DNA of 64,000 nucleotides, taken from assembly GCA_002239025.1 (NCBI GenBank), contig MPNM01000011.1:1-64000 (forward strand). Reading direction: 5' to 3'. Position 1 is the first letter of the stretch. Each line of letters begins with the position of its first letter. The translations under genes and the position numbers were made by a program. The notes beneath the pieces were generated by a model. That model was not told the DNA's origin and did not search any database. It saw only the letters and a program-made list of their open reading frames with translations. This document shows, piece after piece, positions 19,686 through 32,880 of this stretch. The stretch is from Chloroflexi bacterium bin125 (lineage in GTDB: Bacteria; Chloroflexota; Dehalococcoidia; Bin125).

Positions 19686-20717
19686 GTGACCCGCCTATTC
19701 GCCAGGCGGTCGAGTGGTCGCTCAGTTGGGCACCTGGATCCTGAGGAGATCAAGCCGGCGGTTGAGGACTATTCGGGGCTGTTCGATGGGAGCCTCGAAC
19801 AACGCAAAGATCGCTATCACGCGGTCGTCAATCACTACTACAACCTTGCGACCGATTTCTACGAGTTCGGTTGGGGTCGGTCATTTCATTTTGCGCCCCG
19901 ACGCCGCGGCGAGAGTTTCAACGAATCGATGCTGCGGCACGAGCACTTTCTCGCCAAACAGTTAACCGTGACCTCGGGCATGCAGGTGCTGGATGTTGGC
20001 TGTGGGGTCGGCGGGCCGATGGCCAATTTGGCCCGCCGCACTGGAGCGAACTTTGTTGGAATCAATCTGAACGCCTACCAGATCGATCGCGCCAAACACC
20101 ACACGAGGGATTTGCAGTCGCAGTGCCGATTCATTCACGGCGACTATATGGACATTCCTGAAGCTGACGACCAGTTTGACGCTGCGATCAATATCGAAGC
20201 CACACCGCACGCGCCCGACAAGACGGCAGTGTTCCGGGAGATCTTCCGTGTCCTGCGTCCGGGCGGCGAGTTTGCCGGCTACGAATGGTGTCTCACCGAC
20301 TTGTACGATCCCGAGAACGCCGACCACGTGCGGATCAAGCAGGACGTCATGAAGGGCAACGGACTTCCAGATATTGCGCACACATCGGAGATCAGCTCGG
20401 CGCTGGTCGCAGCAGGGTTCGAGGTCGTGGAAGCTCGCGACCTCGCCCCCGAATCGGATCCGGAGACTCCCTGGTACCGCCCGCTACAAGGTCGCGATCT
20501 GAGTCTGGCGAGTTTGCCACGAACGCCGATTGGCCGAGCCCTGACAAACATGTCGTTGCGAGTCGGAGAGAAGCTGCGGATCGTTCCTGAGGGCGCTCGG
20601 GAGATCAGCAGCGTGTTGAATGCGGGCGCTGATGCGCTGGTCGAGGGCGGGGAGGCCGGTGTGTTTACGCCGATGTTCTACTACCTGGCGAGAAAACCCG
20701 AACAGTCCGAGGGCTGA
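19686..20717 (+). CDS. sterol C-24 methyltransferase-like SAM-dependent methyltransferase
   Basis: SMT signature regions: YEFGWGRSFHFAPRRRGESFNESMLRHEHFLA, LDVGCGVGGP, IEATPHAP, GYEWCLTDLYDPENADHVRIKQDVMKGNGLPDI, GFEVVEARDLA; GTG start with AGGAGAG upstream. Confidence 0.88.
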   Translation: MTRLFARRSSGRSVGHLDPEEIKPAVEDYSGLFDGSLEQRKDRYHAVVNHYYNLATDFYEFGWGRSFHFAPRRRGESFNESMLRHEHFLAKQLTVTSGMQVLDVGCGVGGPMANLARRTGANFVGINLNAYQIDRAKHHTRDLQSQCRFIHGDYMDIPEADDQFDAAINIEATPHAPDKTAVFREIFRVLRPGGEFAGYEWCLTDLYDPENADHVRIKQDVMKGNGLPDIAHTSEISSALVAAGFEVVEARDLAPESDPETPWYRPLQGRDLSLASLPRTPIGRALTNMSLRVGEKLRIVPEGAREISSVLNAGADALVEGGEAGVFTPMFYYLARKPEQSEG

Positions 20718-20747: not shown

Positions 20748-23700
20748 TCAGACGCTGCGGGCCTTGCGCCGCTCCTCGTACAAGCCGAGGGCGTGCAACG
20801 GGAAGTACTGTCGGTACAGCACGTAGTCCAACAGCGCTGTGCGGAAAAACACTCCAGCCAAGTCTTGTTTGGGCCAGGTCCCGTCCGGACACTGCCGTTC
20901 GATCAGGAACTGAACGCCGCGCGCAATGGCTGGCCAATCTGACGCTCCCGCCTCGAGCAAGGCGATTAGCGCCCAGGCAGTCTGGATAATCTGACTCTCC
21001 TCGTGTTGGACGTATTGTCCGGTCATGCAGCCGCTGTGATGCTCGCCCCATCCTCCGTCGTCGTTCTGGCGATCCAATAGCCATCTGCATGCTGCTTTGA
21101 GCGCCGGATCGTTCGGCTGCGCTCCATTGGCGACCAGGCCTTTGATCCCGAAGAACGTGCCGTAGATGAACTGCACACCCCACACTCCACGCCAGGAGCC
21201 GTCGCTGTTCTGAGTACGGCGGAGGCAGGCATCCGCTTGCGAGATGGCGCGTTCCGTGTCCCGATCGATGATCTCCGGGAAGTGCGTCCGGCAAGCGACG
21301 AGCGCTGCCAGGCAGGAAGCGGTGCATTCGACGAATGAGTGCTCGGTCATTGACTCGCCGAACATCTCGGCGGGATTGACTCGCTCGAGTTCGACCCTGG
21401 AGCGCTGTGCCTCATAACTGCCGAATCCGCCATCGCGATTCTGCCCACGCAGCATGAAGCCAATCGCATCGCGGAGTGCTGTCGCGCTGATCGATGTGGG
21501 ATCGGCTGCCAGAATCCCCAGCACGGCTTCCGCCGTGCAGTCCGTTACCGGCCAACCGTGCCATTGCGCGGCGAAACACCAACCGCCCTTCGGGTCGTTG
21601 CGATACGCCTCGCGATAGCCCGGAAAGCTGGTAGCGATCTGCTGTTCCCGGAGGTAAGTAGTCCCGCGCTGTAACGCGTCGGGCAAGTCGCCAATCTGAG
21701 GCACGGTCGACAGCGCCTGCAGCGCGAAGCCCGTGTCCCACGAGGCGCTTCTGGCGCCGGTCATGCGGGCGCCATGCTCCTCGTCTTCCCAGAACCATTG
21801 GTTGACCTGCTCCAGCGCTCGTTGGCAGTCGCCGTCGTCGGGATCGTGCAGCCACAGGGCGAGGATGTTGAGCAGGCCGCTGACCGGAGAGATGCTCGTG
21901 TGATCAGTCGTGTTGAGCTCCCACTTGATCTGACCGATCAGCGCCTCAATCGACCTGGCGCGCAGGCCCTTGCCGTGGAATCGCTCAAGTAGCTCCGCGC
22001 CCCGGTACCCCGCTCTCAGCAATGCTGTCGGCTTGGCGAAGAGGTCAGCCTGGCGCAGGTGGTTGCGATGCGCAGGAAAGTCGACGGTTTCAAACCCCTG
22101 GGGGAACAATTCTTCGCGTAAGGACTCGATCAGTGGTGTGACCGGCGTCTGGAACCGACGCGGATAGATCGCAGCCATGGCCATGTAGATCAGCCGGGTG
22201 TGGCAGTACCAGTTCGAGGGATGCAGTGGCAGTTGGCGGGGTAGGCTCCAGAGCTCGGGGAGCACGGGATGGATTCCACTCCACTCGTAGAGATTGAGCA
22301 GCGCCAGCCAGAACTTGCCCCAGCTTGGGATGCTCAGAGTGCCTTCCTGCTGGAGGAATCGTCGCGCCGGCTTGACCAGCGGATCGTCCCGCTCAATGCC
22401 GAGCAGTCGTGACGCCACATAGACCAGGGCGGTGACAAACACGTAGGGATGTGAGTGGTCGTGTAAGCCCCACGATCCCTCCGGCAACCGAGACTGCTCG
22501 AAGTAACGCAGAATCCGCTCGCGTCGCTCGGGATCGATCGGCCGCCCAATGATGTGCTGCAGCAGCACCCACTGCGCCGTGATCATTGGGCACCAGACCA
22601 TCTCGCCTTCCCAACTGCCATCTTCGGCCTGGAGGTCCAACAGACTCGCGGCGGCGCCCTGTATCGCCGGACGGGCATCAGGTGACAGGGCATCCGGCTG
22701 ACGCAGGTCGCCGTTTCGTGGCCGCTCTGATGGAGCCGATGGCATGGAGGTCAGAAATGCGCGGGACAGCGTCTCGGTGGGCCGTTCGGGTCCGGCATTG
22801 CCGGCTCGTCTGACACTGTGCAGGTTCCAGGCGCCTCGCAGAAGCCACGCCATGCGATTGCCCAGACCGCGAGCGACCTCGCCGAACTGGCGCCAGGCTG
22901 GAAGGTCGAGCGACCTCGGAACAGCGGCCCTGAGCGCCCACGCCACCGTCATCGAGAACTCGCGACTCAGGCTGGCCACCGAGGTGTCTTCACAGGCAAG
23001 CAGCCGCACGGTGTGGTTACGTACCGCGGCACTGGTCCTCCAGCGACCAAACATTGCCTGCCGCAGCACGGCCGCTTCGGCCCGCTGATCGGCAAACGCC
23101 TCGTAGAGTCCCATTGCCAGCAGTTCCGGAACTCTTGTCGCGTCGAATCGCTCGTTCCTAAAGTCTTCGAACTGTTCGCTCTCCGCCAGCGCGATGGCAT
23201 CACCAAAGCCCAGCGTGAGCCCTGTGGCAGTCAAGGGGTGGTAGTGTCCTGCCGCATCGCCAATCAGCACTCGACGAGAGGTGCCGTACGTGACCCGTGG
23301 GCTGACGACATTGGCGGCGGCGTGAACACGGTCTTCCGACCACGCCTCGACGAACGGCGCCCGGAGCGGTTCCGGCAACCAGCGGGCATACGAGTCCGAC
23401 AGGAGGCCTTTCCAGTCTTGAGGCGCATGTTCAAATGGGATGTCAATGACGGCGCGGACGAGATCGTCGCTCAGGCGATAGATCAGCATCGGGCCGGGAG
23501 CGCCACACACGACGTGTCCGTATCCCTCCAGTGGCAGCCGGGCGCCCTCCAAGGTGAGCCCAATCATGCGCGAAGCAGTTTTCGATCTTGTAGCCAGGCC
23601 CAACGAACGACGGACCACCGACGAGCGGCCGTCGGCGCCGACGATCCGCTCTGCAACAACGGTCTGGCTTGTGCCGTTCTGCGAGAAGGTGATTCGTTCG

Positions 23701-24104
23701 TCCTCGACGGTGTGCACGCGGGCGTGAAGTCTGAGGTCGACACCGGGCTCCGCGTCCGCCGTCTCGCGTAGACGTGAGACCAGCGTCGCGTGTTCACACA
23801 CCAGCCCGCGCGATCCGTCCGAGTAGGGAAGCACGATTGGCTCGTGGCCGTCATCCGGGAACACCGCGAAGCCCTTGCCTGAGCCGCCCCGAGCTTCATC
23901 ATGGACTGATATCCCGAAATCACGCAGGATTCGTGCGGCTGGAGGATGCAGCCACTCACCTGCCAGTCGCTCCGACGCGGACGGATTCGCCTCGAACAGC
24001 GCGACTCGATAGCCATTGCGCGCATGGGCAATCGCGCACAGGCTGCCGACAGGTCCGGCGCCGACGATCGCCACATCGTATCGGCTCACGCCGGTATCAG
24101 TCAC
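20748..24104 (-). CDS. fused squalene-epoxidase-like FAD monooxygenase + oxidosqualene cyclase
   Basis: N-term: DVAIVGAGPVGSLCAIAHARNGYRVALFEANPSASERLAGEWLHPPAARILRDFGI, GADGRSSVVRRSLG, RRVLIGDAAGHYHPLTATGLTLGFGDAIAL. C-term: WYCHTRLIYMAMAAIYPRRF, SASWDTGFALQAL, HGWPVTDCTAE, QW repeats (QNDDGGWGE, QCPDGTWPK). GTG at 24104 overlaps the CYP51 TGA; the track start at 24173 would overlap CYP51. Confidence 0.92.
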   Translation of the reverse strand: MTDTGVSRYDVAIVGAGPVGSLCAIAHARNGYRVALFEANPSASERLAGEWLHPPAARILRDFGISVHDEARGGSGKGFAVFPDDGHEPIVLPYSDGSRGLVCEHATLVSRLRETADAEPGVDLRLHARVHTVEDERITFSQNGTSQTVVAERIVGADGRSSVVRRSLGLATRSKTASRMIGLTLEGARLPLEGYGHVVCGAPGPMLIYRLSDDLVRAVIDIPFEHAPQDWKGLLSDSYARWLPEPLRAPFVEAWSEDRVHAAANVVSPRVTYGTSRRVLIGDAAGHYHPLTATGLTLGFGDAIALAESEQFEDFRNERFDATRVPELLAMGLYEAFADQRAEAAVLRQAMFGRWRTSAAVRNHTVRLLACEDTSVASLSREFSMTVAWALRAAVPRSLDLPAWRQFGEVARGLGNRMAWLLRGAWNLHSVRRAGNAGPERPTETLSRAFLTSMPSAPSERPRNGDLRQPDALSPDARPAIQGAAASLLDLQAEDGSWEGEMVWCPMITAQWVLLQHIIGRPIDPERRERILRYFEQSRLPEGSWGLHDHSHPYVFVTALVYVASRLLGIERDDPLVKPARRFLQQEGTLSIPSWGKFWLALLNLYEWSGIHPVLPELWSLPRQLPLHPSNWYCHTRLIYMAMAAIYPRRFQTPVTPLIESLREELFPQGFETVDFPAHRNHLRQADLFAKPTALLRAGYRGAELLERFHGKGLRARSIEALIGQIKWELNTTDHTSISPVSGLLNILALWLHDPDDGDCQRALEQVNQWFWEDEEHGARMTGARSASWDTGFALQALSTVPQIGDLPDALQRGTTYLREQQIATSFPGYREAYRNDPKGGWCFAAQWHGWPVTDCTAEAVLGILAADPTSISATALRDAIGFMLRGQNRDGGFGSYEAQRSRVELERVNPAEMFGESMTEHSFVECTASCLAALVACRTHFPEIIDRDTERAISQADACLRRTQNSDGSWRGVWGVQFIYGTFFGIKGLVANGAQPNDPALKAACRWLLDRQNDDGGWGEHHSGCMTGQYVQHEESQIIQTAWALIALLEAGASDWPAIARGVQFLIERQCPDGTWPKQDLAGVFFRTALLDYVLYRQYFPLHALGLYEERRKARSV

Positions 24105-25501
24105 CGGAAGACTCTGCCTTGCGAACGGCGCCGATATCGGATTCGACAGGGTGTCACGGGACCAGTGACCCAACTGCCGTAGTTGGGGGTCGGAAAGGCA
24201 GTGTCGAGACTGAAGTCGAAGCGATCGAGCAGCACGGTCCAGATGGCTTTGACCTGCATCTCGGCAAAGTGTTTGCCCATGCAGCGATGCTTGCCGCCGC
24301 CGAAGCCGATCAAGGCGTAGGGATGCTGTTTGTCCTCGCGAGCGGGTTCGGCGTAGCGGTCCGGATCGAATTGGTCCGGGTTGGCGAACAGATGCGGCAG
24401 CCGGTGAGAAACCGCCGGCGAGACCATCGCTAGCGCACCTTCAGGCACCAAGTAGTCTCCGTAGCGCATCGGCTTGAGCACCTTGCGGATCAGGATGATC
24501 AGCGGCGGGTGGAGTCGCTCGCCCTCGCGCACCGCATGCTCCATGGTCACCTGTTGTCTCAGGCCCTCGAGGCTCATGCTCCCGGTATCGCCGTACACGG
24601 CGGCCGTTTCATCTCTGACACGTTCCGCGTATGAGGAGGCTCTCAGGAGTTCAAGACCGGTCCAGGTGGCGAGCACCGCGCTGGTGTGCTGACCGGCGAA
24701 CAACACGGTCAAGAGGATTCCCGTGATCTCGTCATCACTCAACGTGCGGCCATCGCTGTAGGCCGCGTCCATAAGCGTTTGCATGAAGTCGTCAGGGCGC
24801 GCATCGGCGCGTCGACGGGCCGACATGATCCGACCAAAGATTTCGGCTACCTGTTTGCGTGCCCGGTCGCGGCTGCGATGCGCGGGAGTCGGAAGCCGGG
24901 GCAGAAAGAAGCCCAGGGTGTTGATACCCTTCTGCAGGTCGTGATAAGCATCGGCGAAGCCCGCGTCCACCTGATCGCGGACTTCCTGACCGATCAGACT
25001 GCGACTGGCGATGTTCACGGTCAGTTCGTTCATTGCTTCCGGCAGATCGAGTACGCCTTCCTCGCCGAGGGAATCGGCTAGTAGCGCCGTCTCCTCGAAC
25101 ATGATCCGGGCGAACTCTTGCATCGCAGCTTCCCTGAGTGCCGGATAGAGAAAGCCGAGCTGCTCGTCCATGATCGTGGGCGCGACATCGTAGGCCACGC
25201 CACGACCGAAGATTGGAACAGTGAACTGATAGACGTCCTTGGCGTTCAGTTGGTCCTCGGGTGCGCTAAAGAACGCGTCATGCGCCTCGGGTCCGCAGAA
25301 GAGCACAAACTGGCGAGGACCAAGTCGGAATCGGAACAGTTCGCCCAACTGACCCCAACCGCGGCTCATCATCGCCACCGGGTCGCGTTGAAAGTCCCGC
25401 AGGTGACCAATCATCGGCGCCCCACCACTCAGCTCGGGGATTGCCCGTTCATCTTGTGGAGCCGTCGGAGCGTTGCGCAGTTGAACCATCTCAGTCCTCA
25501 A
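24101..25501 (-). CDS. cyp51: CYP51-type cytochrome P450 (sterol 14alpha-demethylase)
   Basis: VPIFGRGVAYDVAPTIMDEQLGFLYPALREAAM, LFAGQHTSAVLATWTGLELL, heme loop FGGGKHRCMGKHFAEMQVKAIW, C-term VTPCRIRYRRR, all CYP51-like. Confidence 0.93.
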   Translation of the reverse strand: MRTEMVQLRNAPTAPQDERAIPELSGGAPMIGHLRDFQRDPVAMMSRGWGQLGELFRFRLGPRQFVLFCGPEAHDAFFSAPEDQLNAKDVYQFTVPIFGRGVAYDVAPTIMDEQLGFLYPALREAAMQEFARIMFEETALLADSLGEEGVLDLPEAMNELTVNIASRSLIGQEVRDQVDAGFADAYHDLQKGINTLGFFLPRLPTPAHRSRDRARKQVAEIFGRIMSARRRADARPDDFMQTLMDAAYSDGRTLSDDEITGILLTVLFAGQHTSAVLATWTGLELLRASSYAERVRDETAAVYGDTGSMSLEGLRQQVTMEHAVREGERLHPPLIILIRKVLKPMRYGDYLVPEGALAMVSPAVSHRLPHLFANPDQFDPDRYAEPAREDKQHPYALIGFGGGKHRCMGKHFAEMQVKAIWTVLLDRFDFSLDTAFPTPNYGSWVTGPVTPCRIRYRRRSQGRVFR

Positions 25502-25521: not shown

Positions 25522-26631
25522 CTAGTAGACCCGCGGGATCAATGCGTATGGTACCCGCTGCGTGTAGCGTTCCCAGAGTTCGCCGTACTTGGTTCGGCAG
25601 CGACGGTCGTCGCGCCTCGCACGGTGCCACAACAGCGCCGTCAGCCACACCGGCAAAGCAAACGGGATCCAGGACGCGAACGCGGTCGTGAGCGCAAATG
25701 CAAAGTACACGCAAATCTCGCCGGAATAGTTCAGATGTCGGCCTACACCCCAGAAGCCAGACACCAGCAGTCGCCCGTCAAGTGTCTCAGCCGGCCGACC
25801 CCAGATTGAACTCTCCGCATCCTGCTTGAAGCGGTGCTTCTGTTCGTTGGCTCCGCGGAACATGCAGAATCCCACGACGAACAGCACGCAGATCAATACC
25901 GCCGCCCAGATCGGTATCGAGTCCGTGCTATCCAACAACCACCATCCTGCCAGGCAATAGAAGAACGGCACCAGGACATAGTCTCCCCAGGTCAACATCC
26001 AGCCAAAGCGCTCAGCGACGATGTCCCAGGTGAAGATCATGCCATTCTCAAACTGAAAGTAGTTCAGGACGTATATGAACGTGAAGGCCTGATACAAGAG
26101 CATTTGTAAAGAGAACTCACCGTGCGTGTCGTACTGGACTGCGGCAAACGACACATTGAACAATGCCAGCGAAATCAGGGATGGTCGGTAGCTGAACAGC
26201 TTCAGGTCGACCCCAAGCCAGGATGGATTGAGCTGTCGGCCGAAGAAGAACCCCCGCAACAGACCGGGCGATTCACCTGGTGATTCGCTTTGGAGACGCG
26301 ACCCTTGCCAGTACAACCCGGCTGAGAGCACACAGGCGAAGATGTTGGACACGATGAACAGCTCGGCAAAGTGCGTGTGTAGCACCGAAAGTGAAATGAC
26401 ATCGAAGACATCGCCGAGCACCGCCAGCAGCATGATGATCAAGAACAGCGCCAGCCCGTTGAGGTTGTAGGTGCGCGTCACGCCGTCAGGATCAGGCCTG
26501 CCCACCGCCTGGCGCCCCGGCACATATTTTGAACCGAGCAGCAGAACTCCGACGAACAGCAGGAATATCCCCATTGCCTCGAGCAGGTGCTGGCCTGATA
26601 CGGCCGTCCACTCCGAGGGGATATCAGGCAT
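25522..26631 (-). CDS. ERG4/ERG24-family sterol reductase (likely C-14 reductase)
   Basis: 369 aa polytopic; C-term LLVSGFWGVGRHLNYSGEICVYFAFALTTAF...HRARRDDRRCRTKYGELWERYTQRVPYALIPRVY. Confidence 0.9.
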   Translation of the reverse strand: MPDIPSEWTAVSGQHLLEAMGIFLLFVGVLLLGSKYVPGRQAVGRPDPDGVTRTYNLNGLALFLIIMLLAVLGDVFDVISLSVLHTHFAELFIVSNIFACVLSAGLYWQGSRLQSESPGESPGLLRGFFFGRQLNPSWLGVDLKLFSYRPSLISLALFNVSFAAVQYDTHGEFSLQMLLYQAFTFIYVLNYFQFENGMIFTWDIVAERFGWMLTWGDYVLVPFFYCLAGWWLLDSTDSIPIWAAVLICVLFVVGFCMFRGANEQKHRFKQDAESSIWGRPAETLDGRLLVSGFWGVGRHLNYSGEICVYFAFALTTAFASWIPFALPVWLTALLWHRARRDDRRCRTKYGELWERYTQRVPYALIPRVY

Positions 26632-27745
26632 CGTTCGAGCTTGTGGCGGTCTCGCGGTCCAGGTGCTCCTGCCACTTGCGGACTGTCACCTGCTGGAACG
26701 AGCGGACAACCGGATTGACCTCGATTGGTGCGGCATCCCAGTTCGTCTCGTAACCCGTTTGCTCAGCCTCCACCGCCCAGCGATCCTGTGAGAGCAACGG
26801 ACCGATCAACATACGGTTGGCCAGGCGCAGGACGGTGGTCATGGCCCAGCGAGGAATGCGAACCGGAAGCATGGGGATTTTGAGCGACCTGAAGTAGAAG
26901 AGGAAAAACGTCCGCGTCCTCCGCTCATCGATGGGTAGGACGAAGAGCCAGTGTTTGATTTCGCCATCGGTGTTTGATCGCTGGTAGGGATATTCGAAGC
27001 AGAGCTCCATGTGGTTGGTATTGAGGCGATCGTGATCGACGAACAATCCAGAGATGCGTCCTCGCCCGACGCGGGTCTCATAGGCCAGGTGTACGTCGTC
27101 GCCAATCGTTTCGTGGCGGGTTAGCGTGGCGCCGTCGAACGGTCGATACTGACGATGCAGGTAGGCGTGAGAGAAATCGCTCACGTTGTCGATGATGATC
27201 GAGTGGTGTGCCGCGAGGTCGAACGTCAGGGGTACGCAGGCCCATCGCCCGGACCCTTCGAGCTCGGGGATTTCCGGGATCTGGCGCTCCTCCGACAGTG
27301 CTGGATCTCCTGGGAAGATCCAGACGAGTCCGTAGCGAACTTGCACCGGATAGGACCTCACGGAGAGCTTCGGTACCTGGTTGCGACCGAACAGGTCGGG
27401 AATGTCAGCGACGTTGCCGTCTTCGTCGTACTGCCAGCCGTGGTAGCCACAGACGAGCTGGCAACCCTCGACCTCGCCTAGCGAGAGTTTGACCTGGCGG
27501 TGCAGGCAACGATTTTCGATCGCGTGAAATGAGCCATCCTCCGACCGGTAGAGCGCGATTGATTGCTTCCAGAACACGACCTCGGTCACCGCGCCCGGCT
27601 TGACGTTCCGCACTTCCTCGACGGCGTACCAGTAGTCCGGGTTCATGCCCGCCGCGCGTGCTTGCTGGCGCAGGTTGCCCTCACTGCCAAAGGCCGGCGG
27701 CCGGACCGTTGTTGCATCTGTATCGACACTCATATCGCGAGCCAT
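26624..27745 (-). CDS. Rieske [2Fe-2S] non-heme iron oxygenase, SdmA-like candidate sterol C-4 demethylase
   Basis: CLHRQVKLSLGEVEGCQLVCGYHGWQYDEDG (CxH..CxxH); DNVSDFSHAYLH iron-site region; stop overlaps the sterol reductase start by 8 bp. Confidence 0.88.
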   Translation of the reverse strand: MARDMSVDTDATTVRPPAFGSEGNLRQQARAAGMNPDYWYAVEEVRNVKPGAVTEVVFWKQSIALYRSEDGSFHAIENRCLHRQVKLSLGEVEGCQLVCGYHGWQYDEDGNVADIPDLFGRNQVPKLSVRSYPVQVRYGLVWIFPGDPALSEERQIPEIPELEGSGRWACVPLTFDLAAHHSIIIDNVSDFSHAYLHRQYRPFDGATLTRHETIGDDVHLAYETRVGRGRISGLFVDHDRLNTNHMELCFEYPYQRSNTDGEIKHWLFVLPIDERRTRTFFLFYFRSLKIPMLPVRIPRWAMTTVLRLANRMLIGPLLSQDRWAVEAEQTGYETNWDAAPIEVNPVVRSFQQVTVRKWQEHLDRETATSSNDA

Positions 27746-27779: not shown

Positions 27780-28874
27780 CTACTCACCTTCCGGGACGAT
27801 CGATTCGGGGCGCTTCGCGCGTGAATTAGTGATGGCCTTGCGCTGATAGTGGAACGCGTACGCGTCGCGAACTGCGGCGCGCATTGTTGTCGGCTGAAAG
27901 CCCAGTTCCTCTTTCGCCTTGCTGGTGTCGGCGTGACGGGACTTCTGCAAGAGTCGGATCGCACCTGGGGTGAATCGCTGGGGGTCGTCGGGGCGAAGCC
28001 GGCTGAGGACGTTGCTGACCACCACTGACATCGGCAACATCAGGCTGACGGGTATCTGCCGCTGCGGTCGCCGAATGCCCGAAACCTCCTGAAACAGATC
28101 CAACATGTTGGAGATCGTCTGGTACTCGGAGCTGAAGATGTACTTCTGCCCTGTTCGCCCGCGCTCCATGCTGAGCACATGTCCCTGGACGATGTCTTGC
28201 GCCGCGACAAACTCGAACCCACCGTCGACATAGGCGTGCAGTTTGCCGTTGGCGAAATCGACCAGCGTCCGACCCATTCGCGAGGGCATGAAGTCGTTTC
28301 CGCCGACGACCGCGCAGGACGTGGCGATCACGACATCTTGACCGTTTGCTGCCGCATGCCAACACTCGGTTTCGACCATCGCCTTGCTGCGCTCATATGG
28401 CATCGTGCGTTCCATGGGATAGAACGGCATCGACTCCCTGGACGGAGCTGACGGATCGTCGAGGTCGTAGCCAACTGCGCTAAACGAGCCGGTTACTACC
28501 ACTCGTCCAGCGTCGAACTCCTGCGCCGCCTGGAGGACGTTACGAGTACCAATCACGTTGCTCTCGAAGACATCCCGCCGATGCGCGTCGTCGCCGTCGA
28601 TCGTGGATACGAGCGCCGCCGTGTGAAAGACGCCGTGGCATCCGGCAAGCGCTTGCCGCGTTGCTTCGAGATCGCGGATGTCGCCATAGACGCGCTCTAC
28701 GTCGAGCCCATCCATGGCCTCGTTGTTGTCCTCGTGTCTCAGCAGCACCCGGACGCGAGCGCCATCGCCTAACAATCTGCGCACCAGATTGGCCCCCACA
28801 TGGCCAGCCGCCCCAGTCACGAATAAGGGCGGCGCTGATGTGCCGGAGACGCTGTCAGATGGCTCAGAGTCCAT
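27780..28874 (-). CDS. NAD(P)-dependent epimerase / 3beta-hydroxysteroid dehydrogenase-like, SdmB-like candidate
   Basis: FVTGAAGHVGANLVRRLL; VFHTAALVS; MPYERSKAMVE; downstream partner of the Rieske gene. Confidence 0.88.
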   Translation of the reverse strand: MDSEPSDSVSGTSAPPLFVTGAAGHVGANLVRRLLGDGARVRVLLRHEDNNEAMDGLDVERVYGDIRDLEATRQALAGCHGVFHTAALVSTIDGDDAHRRDVFESNVIGTRNVLQAAQEFDAGRVVVTGSFSAVGYDLDDPSAPSRESMPFYPMERTMPYERSKAMVETECWHAAANGQDVVIATSCAVVGGNDFMPSRMGRTLVDFANGKLHAYVDGGFEFVAAQDIVQGHVLSMERGRTGQKYIFSSEYQTISNMLDLFQEVSGIRRPQRQIPVSLMLPMSVVVSNVLSRLRPDDPQRFTPGAIRLLQKSRHADTSKAKEELGFQPTTMRAAVRDAYAFHYQRKAITNSRAKRPESIVPEGE

Positions 28875-29083
28875 GTGGCTCTCACACTGTGCATTGGGCG
28901 GACAGGGTGTGGATGAAGTCGAAGATAATCGCTGCCCGTTAGACGTTCAAGATCAGGAATGAACGGCGTCAGCCGATTCGACTGCTAGAGAACAACCCTG
29001 CATCAAGGCAGTGTCGCTATGATGCACACTTGATCTGGCGGGAGTGGTCAGGTCGATCTGTGTAGCGAAGAGAGTCGGTCGGA
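28875..29083. promoter_or_regulatory. divergent intergenic region of the sterol locus with 7-bp inverted repeat
   Basis: 209 bp between divergent genes; TGCATCA (28999-29005) and TGATGCA (29020-29026). Confidence 0.4.
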
Positions 29084-29794
29084 TTGAGTAGCGCGAGCGA
29101 GCAAACGGGCCGATGGGGCGCACCGGCAGGTCTGATCGCAGTGCTGGCGATCGCACTCCTGGCGTTGCCGGGCATTCTCGTTCGCTACTACATCCATGGC
29201 GATTTGAACGCCTTTCAATTCCTGTTCAGCGTGTTCTTCGCGACCAATCTGCTGATCTGCTTCTGGGAAATGTGTCTCTACTTCCGCAGGGACTACATCG
29301 AGGAGCGCGCCGAACACTGGCGCAAAGAGTGGAGCGCTACTGGCCGGACGCCGGCCCTCGTATTCCTGACCACACGAGTGCCGCTCGCACGAGTCCTGTC
29401 TCCGACGGTCTGGGCTGACGTCTGGGCGACTTACTCAATGTTCGATTCGGCGTACGCAGATCGAAACACGTACGGATTCAACATCGATATCGCGAATGGG
29501 TTCACCACTCCGGCGTCGACAGCGGTTCTGTACGCGGCGTACACGGCTGGCGTGCTGCCGGCTATTGCTGTCGGCATTGTTGGGGCGATGCTGTTCTGGC
29601 AGTGGGTCTATGCGTCCTCGCTCTACCTGGTCAGCTTCTTCGTCGGTCGGAAATGGAGCCGTATCACGCCGAGCCAGTTCTACATCTACATCATGGGCCC
29701 AAACGCCGTCTGGGTGTTGATCCCGATCGTGGGGATGTACATCTCCATTCGCCTGATTTTGGACGGCGACTACAGCGTGTTGGGCATGGATTAG
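29084..29794 (+). CDS. polytopic membrane protein, EXPERA/emopamil-binding-protein-like candidate sterol isomerase
   Basis: 236 aa, TTG start; motif-level resemblance to EBP: VWATYSMFDSAYADRNTYGFNIDIANGFTT, QWVYASSLYLVSFF...FYIYIMGPNAVWVLIP. Confidence 0.6.
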   Translation: MSSASEQTGRWGAPAGLIAVLAIALLALPGILVRYYIHGDLNAFQFLFSVFFATNLLICFWEMCLYFRRDYIEERAEHWRKEWSATGRTPALVFLTTRVPLARVLSPTVWADVWATYSMFDSAYADRNTYGFNIDIANGFTTPASTAVLYAAYTAGVLPAIAVGIVGAMLFWQWVYASSLYLVSFFVGRKWSRITPSQFYIYIMGPNAVWVLIPIVGMYISIRLILDGDYSVLGMD

Positions 29795-30902: not shown

Positions 30903-32225
30903 CTAGTCGGGGCTGGCGCTCCAGACGGTGAAGTTTCCTCCGAGGGGCATTGGCCCTCCTGAGACTGCGACTTCCGGCGTGACGCCGGTGACCTGCCTCT
31001 CGCCGGCTCGGCCCTGGAGTTGTTGGATGCAGTCGGTGTGCATCCAGACTCGGCTGCGTCCGCTTCCGACGTTGCCGCCGCTGGGCGAGACAGGGTTGGG
31101 GCCTTCGATGCTGATATCGGTCGCATAGAAGTCCAGCGCCTCGCCGAACTTGATCCCGCGAAAGCCCAGGCCTTCCAGGTGGAACTGGTGGAAGAGTGAG
31201 AAGCCGTCGTACATGTTCTCGAAGGAGAGATCGTCGGCCGTGATGCCTGCGCCCTCGTAGATCTTGCGACCGGTGCGGGCGGTGTCGTCTTCTACCTCAT
31301 CGAGCGTTGGCAGCAGGCTGCGCGGCCTCGTGTTGCTGGAGGCGTGATTGAGGATGTAGACCGGCTTCTGCTTCATATCGGCTGCGCGTTCGGCCGTCGA
31401 GAAGAGGTAGGCGCCGGACATCATGATCGGAATGTCGTTGTCGAACAGGTTGGCCGGCTTGGCGATCCATCGTGAGGCGAGATAGTCCTCGGGTCCCAGT
31501 TCCTCGGGCCGGTGCTGGGCCCAGTAGCCCTCGGGGAACCGCAGTCCGTTGCGGCGGGAGTTCTCCATGAAGGGCGCCATCATCTCGTGGGTCTTGCCGT
31601 ACTTGCGGCAATACTCGGCGAATTGCAACGCCGTGCTGTACGAGGCGGGGCCGCCCCAGAGCTGGGTGATGGCCGGAGTGCCGGGCAGTGCGTCGCCGGC
31701 GTTGGCGCCGCCCTGGTAGTAGCGACCCTCGAAGTTGTGCCAGCTCTTGACGACCAGGCAGGTGTGAGCGAGACCGTCGCCGACGGCCTGAGCCGTCACG
31801 TTCAGCGCATTCGACATGCAGCCGGGACCGTACATCGTGAACTTGACGTTGCTCAGTTCGGGCATGTTTGCCAGTAGCCACTCGGCGCTGAGCTTCGCGA
31901 TGCCGTCGAGCGGATCGTCCGTCTGCTGGAAGCTCTGGATCACGTCCATGGGCAGCGGCTTGCCCTCTTCCCAGAACGCGCCGGTCGTGGTTTCGCGGAC
32001 GACGACCAGTCCATCGATCTGATCGGGCGCGACGCCGGCGTCGGCAATCGCCTGGCGCAGCGCCTGAATGCTGATCGCGCCGACGCAGGTTTCGGGTCGG
32101 CCGTCCCAGCGGCGCGCCGTGGGCGCATGGCCGACACCGACCGCGGCGACCTTTCCTCGGTGCTCCCAGATTCCCATCCCCTCGTCGTTTCGGTACATCG
32201 CGTCAGTTGCAATGGGTGTCGTCAT
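30903..32225 (-). CDS. thiolase-like / SCP-x-type lipid-transfer protein
   Basis: VAAVGVGHAPTARRWDGRPETCVGAISIQALRQAIADAGVAPDQIDGLVV; PSGGNVGSGRSRVWMHTDCIQQLQGRAGERQV. Confidence 0.88.
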   Translation of the reverse strand: MTTPIATDAMYRNDEGMGIWEHRGKVAAVGVGHAPTARRWDGRPETCVGAISIQALRQAIADAGVAPDQIDGLVVVRETTTGAFWEEGKPLPMDVIQSFQQTDDPLDGIAKLSAEWLLANMPELSNVKFTMYGPGCMSNALNVTAQAVGDGLAHTCLVVKSWHNFEGRYYQGGANAGDALPGTPAITQLWGGPASYSTALQFAEYCRKYGKTHEMMAPFMENSRRNGLRFPEGYWAQHRPEELGPEDYLASRWIAKPANLFDNDIPIMMSGAYLFSTAERAADMKQKPVYILNHASSNTRPRSLLPTLDEVEDDTARTGRKIYEGAGITADDLSFENMYDGFSLFHQFHLEGLGFRGIKFGEALDFYATDISIEGPNPVSPSGGNVGSGRSRVWMHTDCIQQLQGRAGERQVTGVTPEVAVSGGPMPLGGNFTVWSASPD

Positions 32226-32266
32226 AGCGGGTTCTCCAAGTTGGGCGGTCCGTTGGGATTTCGGGA

Positions 32267-32680
32267 TTAGTCGGCAACGACGCGCCACTCGGGCACGAGT
32301 TGACCGTTGGCTGAGGGTTCGAAGATCACTTCGACGGCCGCGCCGACCGGTACATCGTCGACAGGCACGCCGGGCAGATGCGAGAACATCTGGATGCCCG
32401 GATCCTCCTCCAGCATGATCACGGCCAGGTTGAAAGGCTGGTCCTGTTGCAGCAGCCGTACGGGACAGTCGTGCACGACTCCGTAGTTGTAGATCGTGCC
32501 TCGTCCGCTCACCGTTTTCCACTCGAGCTCATCGCCCTTGCTGCAGCCGCGACAGGTGTCCCCGGGCGGGTGCTGCAACTGATCACAATCCAAGCAGTAC
32601 TGGATGACGAGACGCTCTTCATTCGCGGCGTCCCAGAATGGCTGGCTGAGGCTGTCCGGCACGACACCTTGCTTGGCCAT
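32267..32680 (-). CDS. DUF35 OB-fold/zinc-ribbon acyl-CoA-associated protein
   Basis: FWDAANEERLVIQYCLDCDQLQHPPGDTCRGC...GRGTIYNYGVVHDCP; partner of thiolase-like gene. Confidence 0.9.
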   Translation of the reverse strand: MAKQGVVPDSLSQPFWDAANEERLVIQYCLDCDQLQHPPGDTCRGCSKGDELEWKTVSGRGTIYNYGVVHDCPVRLLQQDQPFNLAVIMLEEDPGIQMFSHLPGVPVDDVPVGAAVEVIFEPSANGQLVPEWRVVAD

Positions 32681-32880
32681 CAGTTCCTCCTGTCTCACGG
32701 TCGCTGAGCCGCAGGACTTCGCTGCCTGCGGCGTTGGTGCAGAATAATGGCTGTGGCGGAGCAGTGAGTAACTGCCCATTTCGAAGACAGTCGCACCGAG
32801 TCGCGGCGGTGCGCAGGGGCGAGCAGGGGCGGTGCTAGCCTGCGCGTCCGCGAGCGGGGGCTGAGGGATCTGAGGCGATC

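Follow-up and report, generated by a model that had tools for sequence, protein, structure and literature searches.

A histidine-less EBP-like membrane protein beside bacterial sterol genes, a candidate sterol isomerase

The window analysed here, a stretch of 64,000 nucleotides, encodes a 236-residue membrane protein, designated EBPL, divergently from a sterol operon. EBPL is best read as a divergent representative of the EXPERA (EBP) superfamily that lacks the catalytic His and has five predicted membrane helices, and its link to sterols is firm. The chances are about even that EBPL is a sterol isomerase working without the EBP histidine. In this genome it would serve de novo synthesis, and elsewhere its substrates would probably be host sterols. 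Its activity would most likely be the isomerisation of a nuclear sterol double bond, from Δ8 to Δ7 in the cluster of the window. If EBPL is an isomerase, uncultured sponge symbionts have in it a candidate enzyme for the double-bond shift in ring B, and an EBP fold can be active in the absence of the histidine.

The EBPL gene and its sterol-gene neighbourhood

The EBPL frame is open from a TTG at 29084 to the stop at 29794, and an internal stop is present in the frame read on the opposite strand. The gene occurs as one copy in the source genome (3.7 Mb). By a scan of genome contigs, 80 relatives were retrieved, which are nearly full length and 52–78% identical. They come from metagenome-assembled genomes (MAGs) of about 10 phyla, many of them from sponges according to the bin name. 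The names IRC, COS, RHO and APA of EBPL-bearing bins match sponge hosts in PMC8163846, and the bins of other name types may also be sponge-associated. In an alignment of 35 members, the mean column identity is about 64%. Because of these 80 relatives and this degree of column identity, EBPL is taken as a real gene, and the 236-residue frame proposed in the first-pass annotation stands. EBPL is scarce outside its carrier lineages, with two clear matches in 201 genomes of Chloroflexota. The features of the window are as follows.

19686..20717, plus strand: sterol C-24 methyltransferase (SMT) homologue (Sterol_MT_C PF08498, E=3e-20)
20748..24173, minus strand: squalene epoxidase-like domain fused to oxidosqualene cyclase, single ORF (PF08491 at 177–406; cyclase domains at 504–1133)
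24101..25501, minus strand: cytochrome P450, putative C-14 demethylase by context (PF00067, E=7e-53)
25522..26631, minus strand: ERG4/ERG24-family sterol reductase, C-14 reductase by context (PF01222, E=4e-72)
26624..27745, minus strand: SdmA-like Rieske 4β-methylsterol monooxygenase (NF052579, E=5e-120, below cut-off; Rieske PF00355)
27780..28874, minus strand: SdmB-like sterol C-4 demethylation dehydrogenase (NCBIfam NF052578, E=3e-92, below its 600-bit cut-off)
28875..29083, no strand: intergenic region of 209 bp between the divergent sdmB and EBPL (gene coordinates)
29084..29794, plus strand: EBPL, EBP-like membrane protein of predicted EXPERA fold, 236 aa (ORF, relatives, alignment, AF2 model, Foldseek)
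EBPL residues, approximate: predicted transmembrane helices 15–38, 43–67, 130–155, 160–187 and 196–227; further helices 69–86 and 107–117

The operon sdmB-sdmA-reductase-P450-epoxidase/cyclase lies upstream of EBPL and is divergent from it, and the SMT gene converges on the operon. The fused epoxidase–cyclase scores 756 bits against TIGR03463, under the cut-off of 851 bits. No sigma-70-like promoter was found in the 209-bp gap between sdmB and EBPL, a negative result of little weight in a genome of this kind. EBPL adjoins sdmB divergently in all 13 of the EBPL-bearing genomes of the same genus, the source genome included, and it is located inside sterol clusters in MAGs of Chloroflexota, Nitrospirales/Gammaproteobacteria and Alphaproteobacteria. 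When loci are labelled on the EBPL tree as inside or outside a sterol cluster, three changes are required (in these same three groups); a single gain of this setting with later losses may have occurred instead. The sterol role suggested earlier from the gene position is supported by this conserved context, beside sdmB and in separate branches of the tree.

The epoxidase–cyclase ORF is continuous over 1141 aa. Relatives with both parts, including the loci L091–L098, have open frames of about 1130–1255 aa in several phyla, and the fusion looks conserved. The source genome has a second SMT homologue (G000:C50:221-1204, 51% identical, one TAG inside) and, outside the window, a second ERG4/ERG24-family reductase (G000:C21:32312-33373). 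At 30903–32779 on the minus strand of the window, a thiolase-like protein (PF22691) follows a small ORF that by eye resembles a DUF35 OB-fold protein. Pairs of this kind are known as lipid-transfer aldolases of steroid side-chain breakdown.

Predicted fold and active-site residues

The AlphaFold2 model of EBPL, built with 35 aligned relatives, has a pLDDT of 88.3 and a pTM of 0.83. In a Foldseek search against 350,542 PDB chains, the top match is human EBP (8w0r, probability 1.00; TM 0.54/0.59, 221 columns, 14% identity), and the runner-up reaches a probability of only 0.15. With the model of a second member (L081, Latescibacterota), EBP is again first (probability 0.97 for 8w0r and 0.63 for 6oht). 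The E-values to EBP are weak, 0.016 for EBPL and 0.096. PF05241 (EXPERA; gathering score 25.7 bits) is touched by 21 of the 35 members, all below the Pfam cut-off. The best relative has an E-value of 0.0016, and EBPL itself scores 7.5 bits. PF05241 is the sole Pfam family that recurs among the members (the next family is found in 2/35), and no rival membrane family appeared in Pfam or in the Foldseek searches with the two models.

Sequence comparisons gave a different result. PDB searches by the EBPL single sequence and by its profile yielded no EXPERA match. The hhalign comparison of the EBPL profile with human EBP (sequence verified against 6OHT) gave a 4.8% match with the last helix alone aligned, and human EBP scored with the EBPL HMM was no better than shuffles. 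As these pairwise tests are negative, the relationship to EBP is remote, and the family claim rests on the fold, the Pfam recurrence and the conserved residues. Thus, the EXPERA/EBP-like fold proposed in the first-pass annotation is supported by structure prediction, in which human EBP is the only confident PDB match, and by the PF05241 recurrence, whereas profile comparison by sequence alone did not recover it.

According to an alanine scan, the activity of human EBP needs H76, E80, W101, Y104, D108, R110, Y111, E122, T125, N193 and W196 (PMC4263179). His76 is the proton donor for C-9, Trp196 stabilises the cation at C-8, and the C-7 proton goes to the Glu80–Glu122 pair; the His76Ala and Glu80Ala enzymes are dead (PMC6549186). 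For seven of these 11 residues, the EBPL counterpart is invariant or almost so across the 35 members. The Pfam registers on PF05241 (human EBP 96–206 on 1–112; EBPL 113–219 on 5–111) place W101 on W114 and N193 on N207. Unforced MAFFT alignment with human EBP places W101, Y104, D108, N193 and W196 on W114, Y117, D121, N207 and W210; the pairing of D108 with D121 also agrees with the Pfam registers. In this MAFFT alignment TM2 was not aligned, so that the correspondence of E62 with E80 was not found, and the stretch around D135 was gapped. The TM2 register (E62 at E80, and the H76 position) was set manually, and D135 and N138 were assigned to E122 and T125 by counting residues from D121.

E62, W114, Y117, D121, D135, N138, N207 and W210 are invariant in the 35 members, and residue 124 is Tyr or Phe. 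Thus the counterpart of E122 is an invariant Asp, and that of T125 is an invariant Asn within the segment DIANGFTTP. The motifs W114..Y117..D121, D135 14 residues on, Q173..Y181 and N207..W210 are kept far beyond chance, so that the motifs listed in the first-pass annotation are present and conserved. It had also placed an acidic residue and a T-rich segment after the helix Asp; the acidic residue is found at the expected spacing, but Asn138 stands where EBP has T125. The catalytic His was reported as absent, and this agrees with the alignment: the H76 position in the manual register is I/V/A/L, and no His column is conserved throughout the 35 members. The R110 position is S/A/C, and a counterpart of this residue is absent.

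Sterol genes in the carrier genomes

A true oxidosqualene cyclase, fragments counted, is present in 13 of 50 EBPL carrier genomes. Five carriers have squalene-hopene-cyclase-like proteins only, and 32 have neither kind; these 32 include G096 (locus L055), which comes from a 1.6-Mb record that its title presents as a Dadabacteria chromosome. An SMT homologue is found in 45/50 carriers, and the sterol-specific C-terminal domain is present in the few carrier SMTs examined. In Gemmatimonadota, 18 genomes carry full-length EBPL and 14 of these have SMT, as against 2 of the 133 remaining genomes (p=2e-14, without correction for kinship). An ERG4/ERG24-family reductase occurs in 19 of the 29 cyclase-less carriers searched. 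The idea that EBPL is confined to de novo sterol clusters was rejected on the counts of cyclase and SMT. As most tested carriers are without oxidosqualene cyclase, EBPL cannot serve the de novo pathway alone, and in these carriers it probably works in the tailoring of host sterols. The set of EBPL, SMT and reductase in genomes without detected cyclase provides a testable case for the idea that symbionts rework sponge sterols, which matters for the question of which organisms make the sterols that underlie sponge sterane biomarkers (PMC10070321).

Canonical EBP over the cut-off was found in none of 61 relatives. An alternative sterol isomerase, of the ERG2/sigma-1 type (PF04622), was found in none of 18 cyclase-bearing genomes, and the control genomes likewise gave no match.

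Two loci of cyclase-less Dadabacteria, L202 (G088:C5:24000-43000) and L205 (G103:C6:118501-130000), combine one or more SMTs with an ERG4/ERG24-family reductase and with transporters of the MMPL/sterol-sensing-domain type; one locus additionally encodes a KshA-like Rieske oxygenase, and the other a LolA-like protein. They are apparent modules of host-sterol modification and transport. In two Latescibacterota MAGs (L051:3554-5295 and L081:10025-11829), EBPL has an SMT homologue as its convergent neighbour, and no further homologue of the sterol genes of the window was found at these loci. The EBPL neighbours in Gemmatimonadota and Dadabacteria gave no functional hint; in Gemmatimonadota, the recurrent neighbours include an ORF that by eye is thymidine-kinase-like.

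Proposed function and comparison with known proteins

As an isomerase, EBPL would hold the sterol in a cavity of matching size, with W114, Y117, D121, N207 and W210 in its wall, and the acidic pair E62 and D135 would sit where EBP has E80 and E122. An acid would protonate C-9 of the sterol, with W210 and N207 stabilising the cation at C-8 and with the C-7 proton passing to the E62/D135 pair. Since the donor His is gone, another acid or water would have to stand in for it. The relatives without cyclase would act on sterols from the sponge host. The first-pass annotation had suggested that the protein supplies the Δ8–Δ7 step. The EXPERA fold and the sterol role in that proposal hold, but the specific reaction does not follow from them, as His76 is replaced in the manual register and most carriers tested are without cyclase.

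The Trp, the Asn and the acidic pair are kept but the His is lost, and for this reason the isomerase is given an even chance and two related readings are weighed beside it. The loss of activity in the His76Ala enzyme (PMC6549186), with an aliphatic residue at that position in EBPL, counts against the isomerase, as does the absence of R110. The low share of carriers with a true oxidosqualene cyclase, the negative sequence comparisons with human EBP, the weak Foldseek E-values and the manual setting of E62 at E80 also weigh against it. The loss of His could mean the loss of isomerisation itself, so that EBPL would be a non-catalytic sterol-binding EXPERA protein like TMEM97/sigma-2, which traffics or senses sterols or chaperones sterol enzymes. 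The replacement of His76 in all 35 members agrees with this, as do the many EBPL genomes without de novo synthesis, including the 1.6-Mb Dadabacteria record, and the occurrence in bacteria of TMEM97, a separate EXPERA subfamily (L123). However, E62, D135, N207 and W210, the counterparts of catalytic or cation-stabilising residues of EBP, are invariant; in TMEM97-type proteins such residues are not known to be kept together. We regard the non-catalytic binder as rather unlikely. An isomerase of other regiochemistry would be rather less likely still. It would convert Δ7 or Δ8 to Δ8(14), or move the Δ24(28) side-chain double bond made by the sterol methyltransferase. EBPL follows SMT far better than cyclase, and the replacements E to D and T to N at E122 and T125 could reshape the site. 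In C. elegans, a C-8 isomerase orthologue was proposed for 8(14)-sterols, which are also found in sponges and whose eukaryotic source is an open question (PMC13277303); both points are in keeping with such an enzyme. Yet it is without known chemistry, the tie with SMT could reflect shared ecology, and the cluster of the window would remain without a known Δ8–Δ7 isomerase.

That EBPL is an unrelated polytopic membrane protein, with a coincidental fold match and a hitchhiking sterol neighbourhood, is very improbable: the sequence-only comparisons are indeed not significant, but both models match only EBP with confidence, PF05241 recurs, and the gene lies in sterol clusters of separate lineages. 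A broader proposal makes EBPL the His-independent sterol isomerase of a guild of sponge-associated symbionts from about ten phyla. Together with the methyltransferase and the ERG4-type reductase it would remodel host sterols, turning them, for instance, into 8(14)-sterols or sterols isomerised in the side chain. We consider it doubtful.

Human EBP (3β-hydroxysteroid Δ8,Δ7-isomerase, 6OHT/8W0R) resembles EBPL in the predicted fold, the W-x2-Y-x3-D helix, the acidic residue 14 positions after the helix Asp, N-x2-W in the last helix and, by the manual register, the TM2 Glu. It differs in having His76 and R110, in Glu122 and Thr125 instead of Asp and Asn, and in lacking about 25 residues (helices 69–96) that EBPL has between TM2 and the luminal helix. 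The TMEM97/sigma-2 receptor (7M93) and the bacterial TMEM97-like L123 share the EXPERA superfamily with EBPL and, like it, are without proven sterol isomerase activity. Proteins of the TMEM97 type are shorter (174–180 aa), TMEM97 is not among the top Foldseek matches of EBPL, and L123 is over the PF05241 cut-off whereas EBPL is under it. A search of Actinomycetota for bona fide EXPERA proteins gave two over this cut-off, one of them closest to TMEM97.

Bacterial C-8 isomerase homologues have been reported in Enhygromyxa salina, Calothrix NIES-4105, Nannocystis and Methylotuvimicrobium (PMC10202945, PMC10152446, PMC13277303). As for EBPL, an isomerase role in a sterol pathway is proposed for them, and the Calothrix gene is within a sterol cluster with SdmAB. 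Those of E. salina and Calothrix came from BLAST searches with known enzymes (E<1e-30, 30% identity), whereas pairwise similarity of EBPL to human EBP is undetectable at that level. The bacterial 8,14-sterol reductase 8,14-Bsr (PMC13277303) is also a bacteria-specific enzyme moving a nuclear sterol double bond, but it has a soluble NTF2 fold and is unrelated to EBPL.
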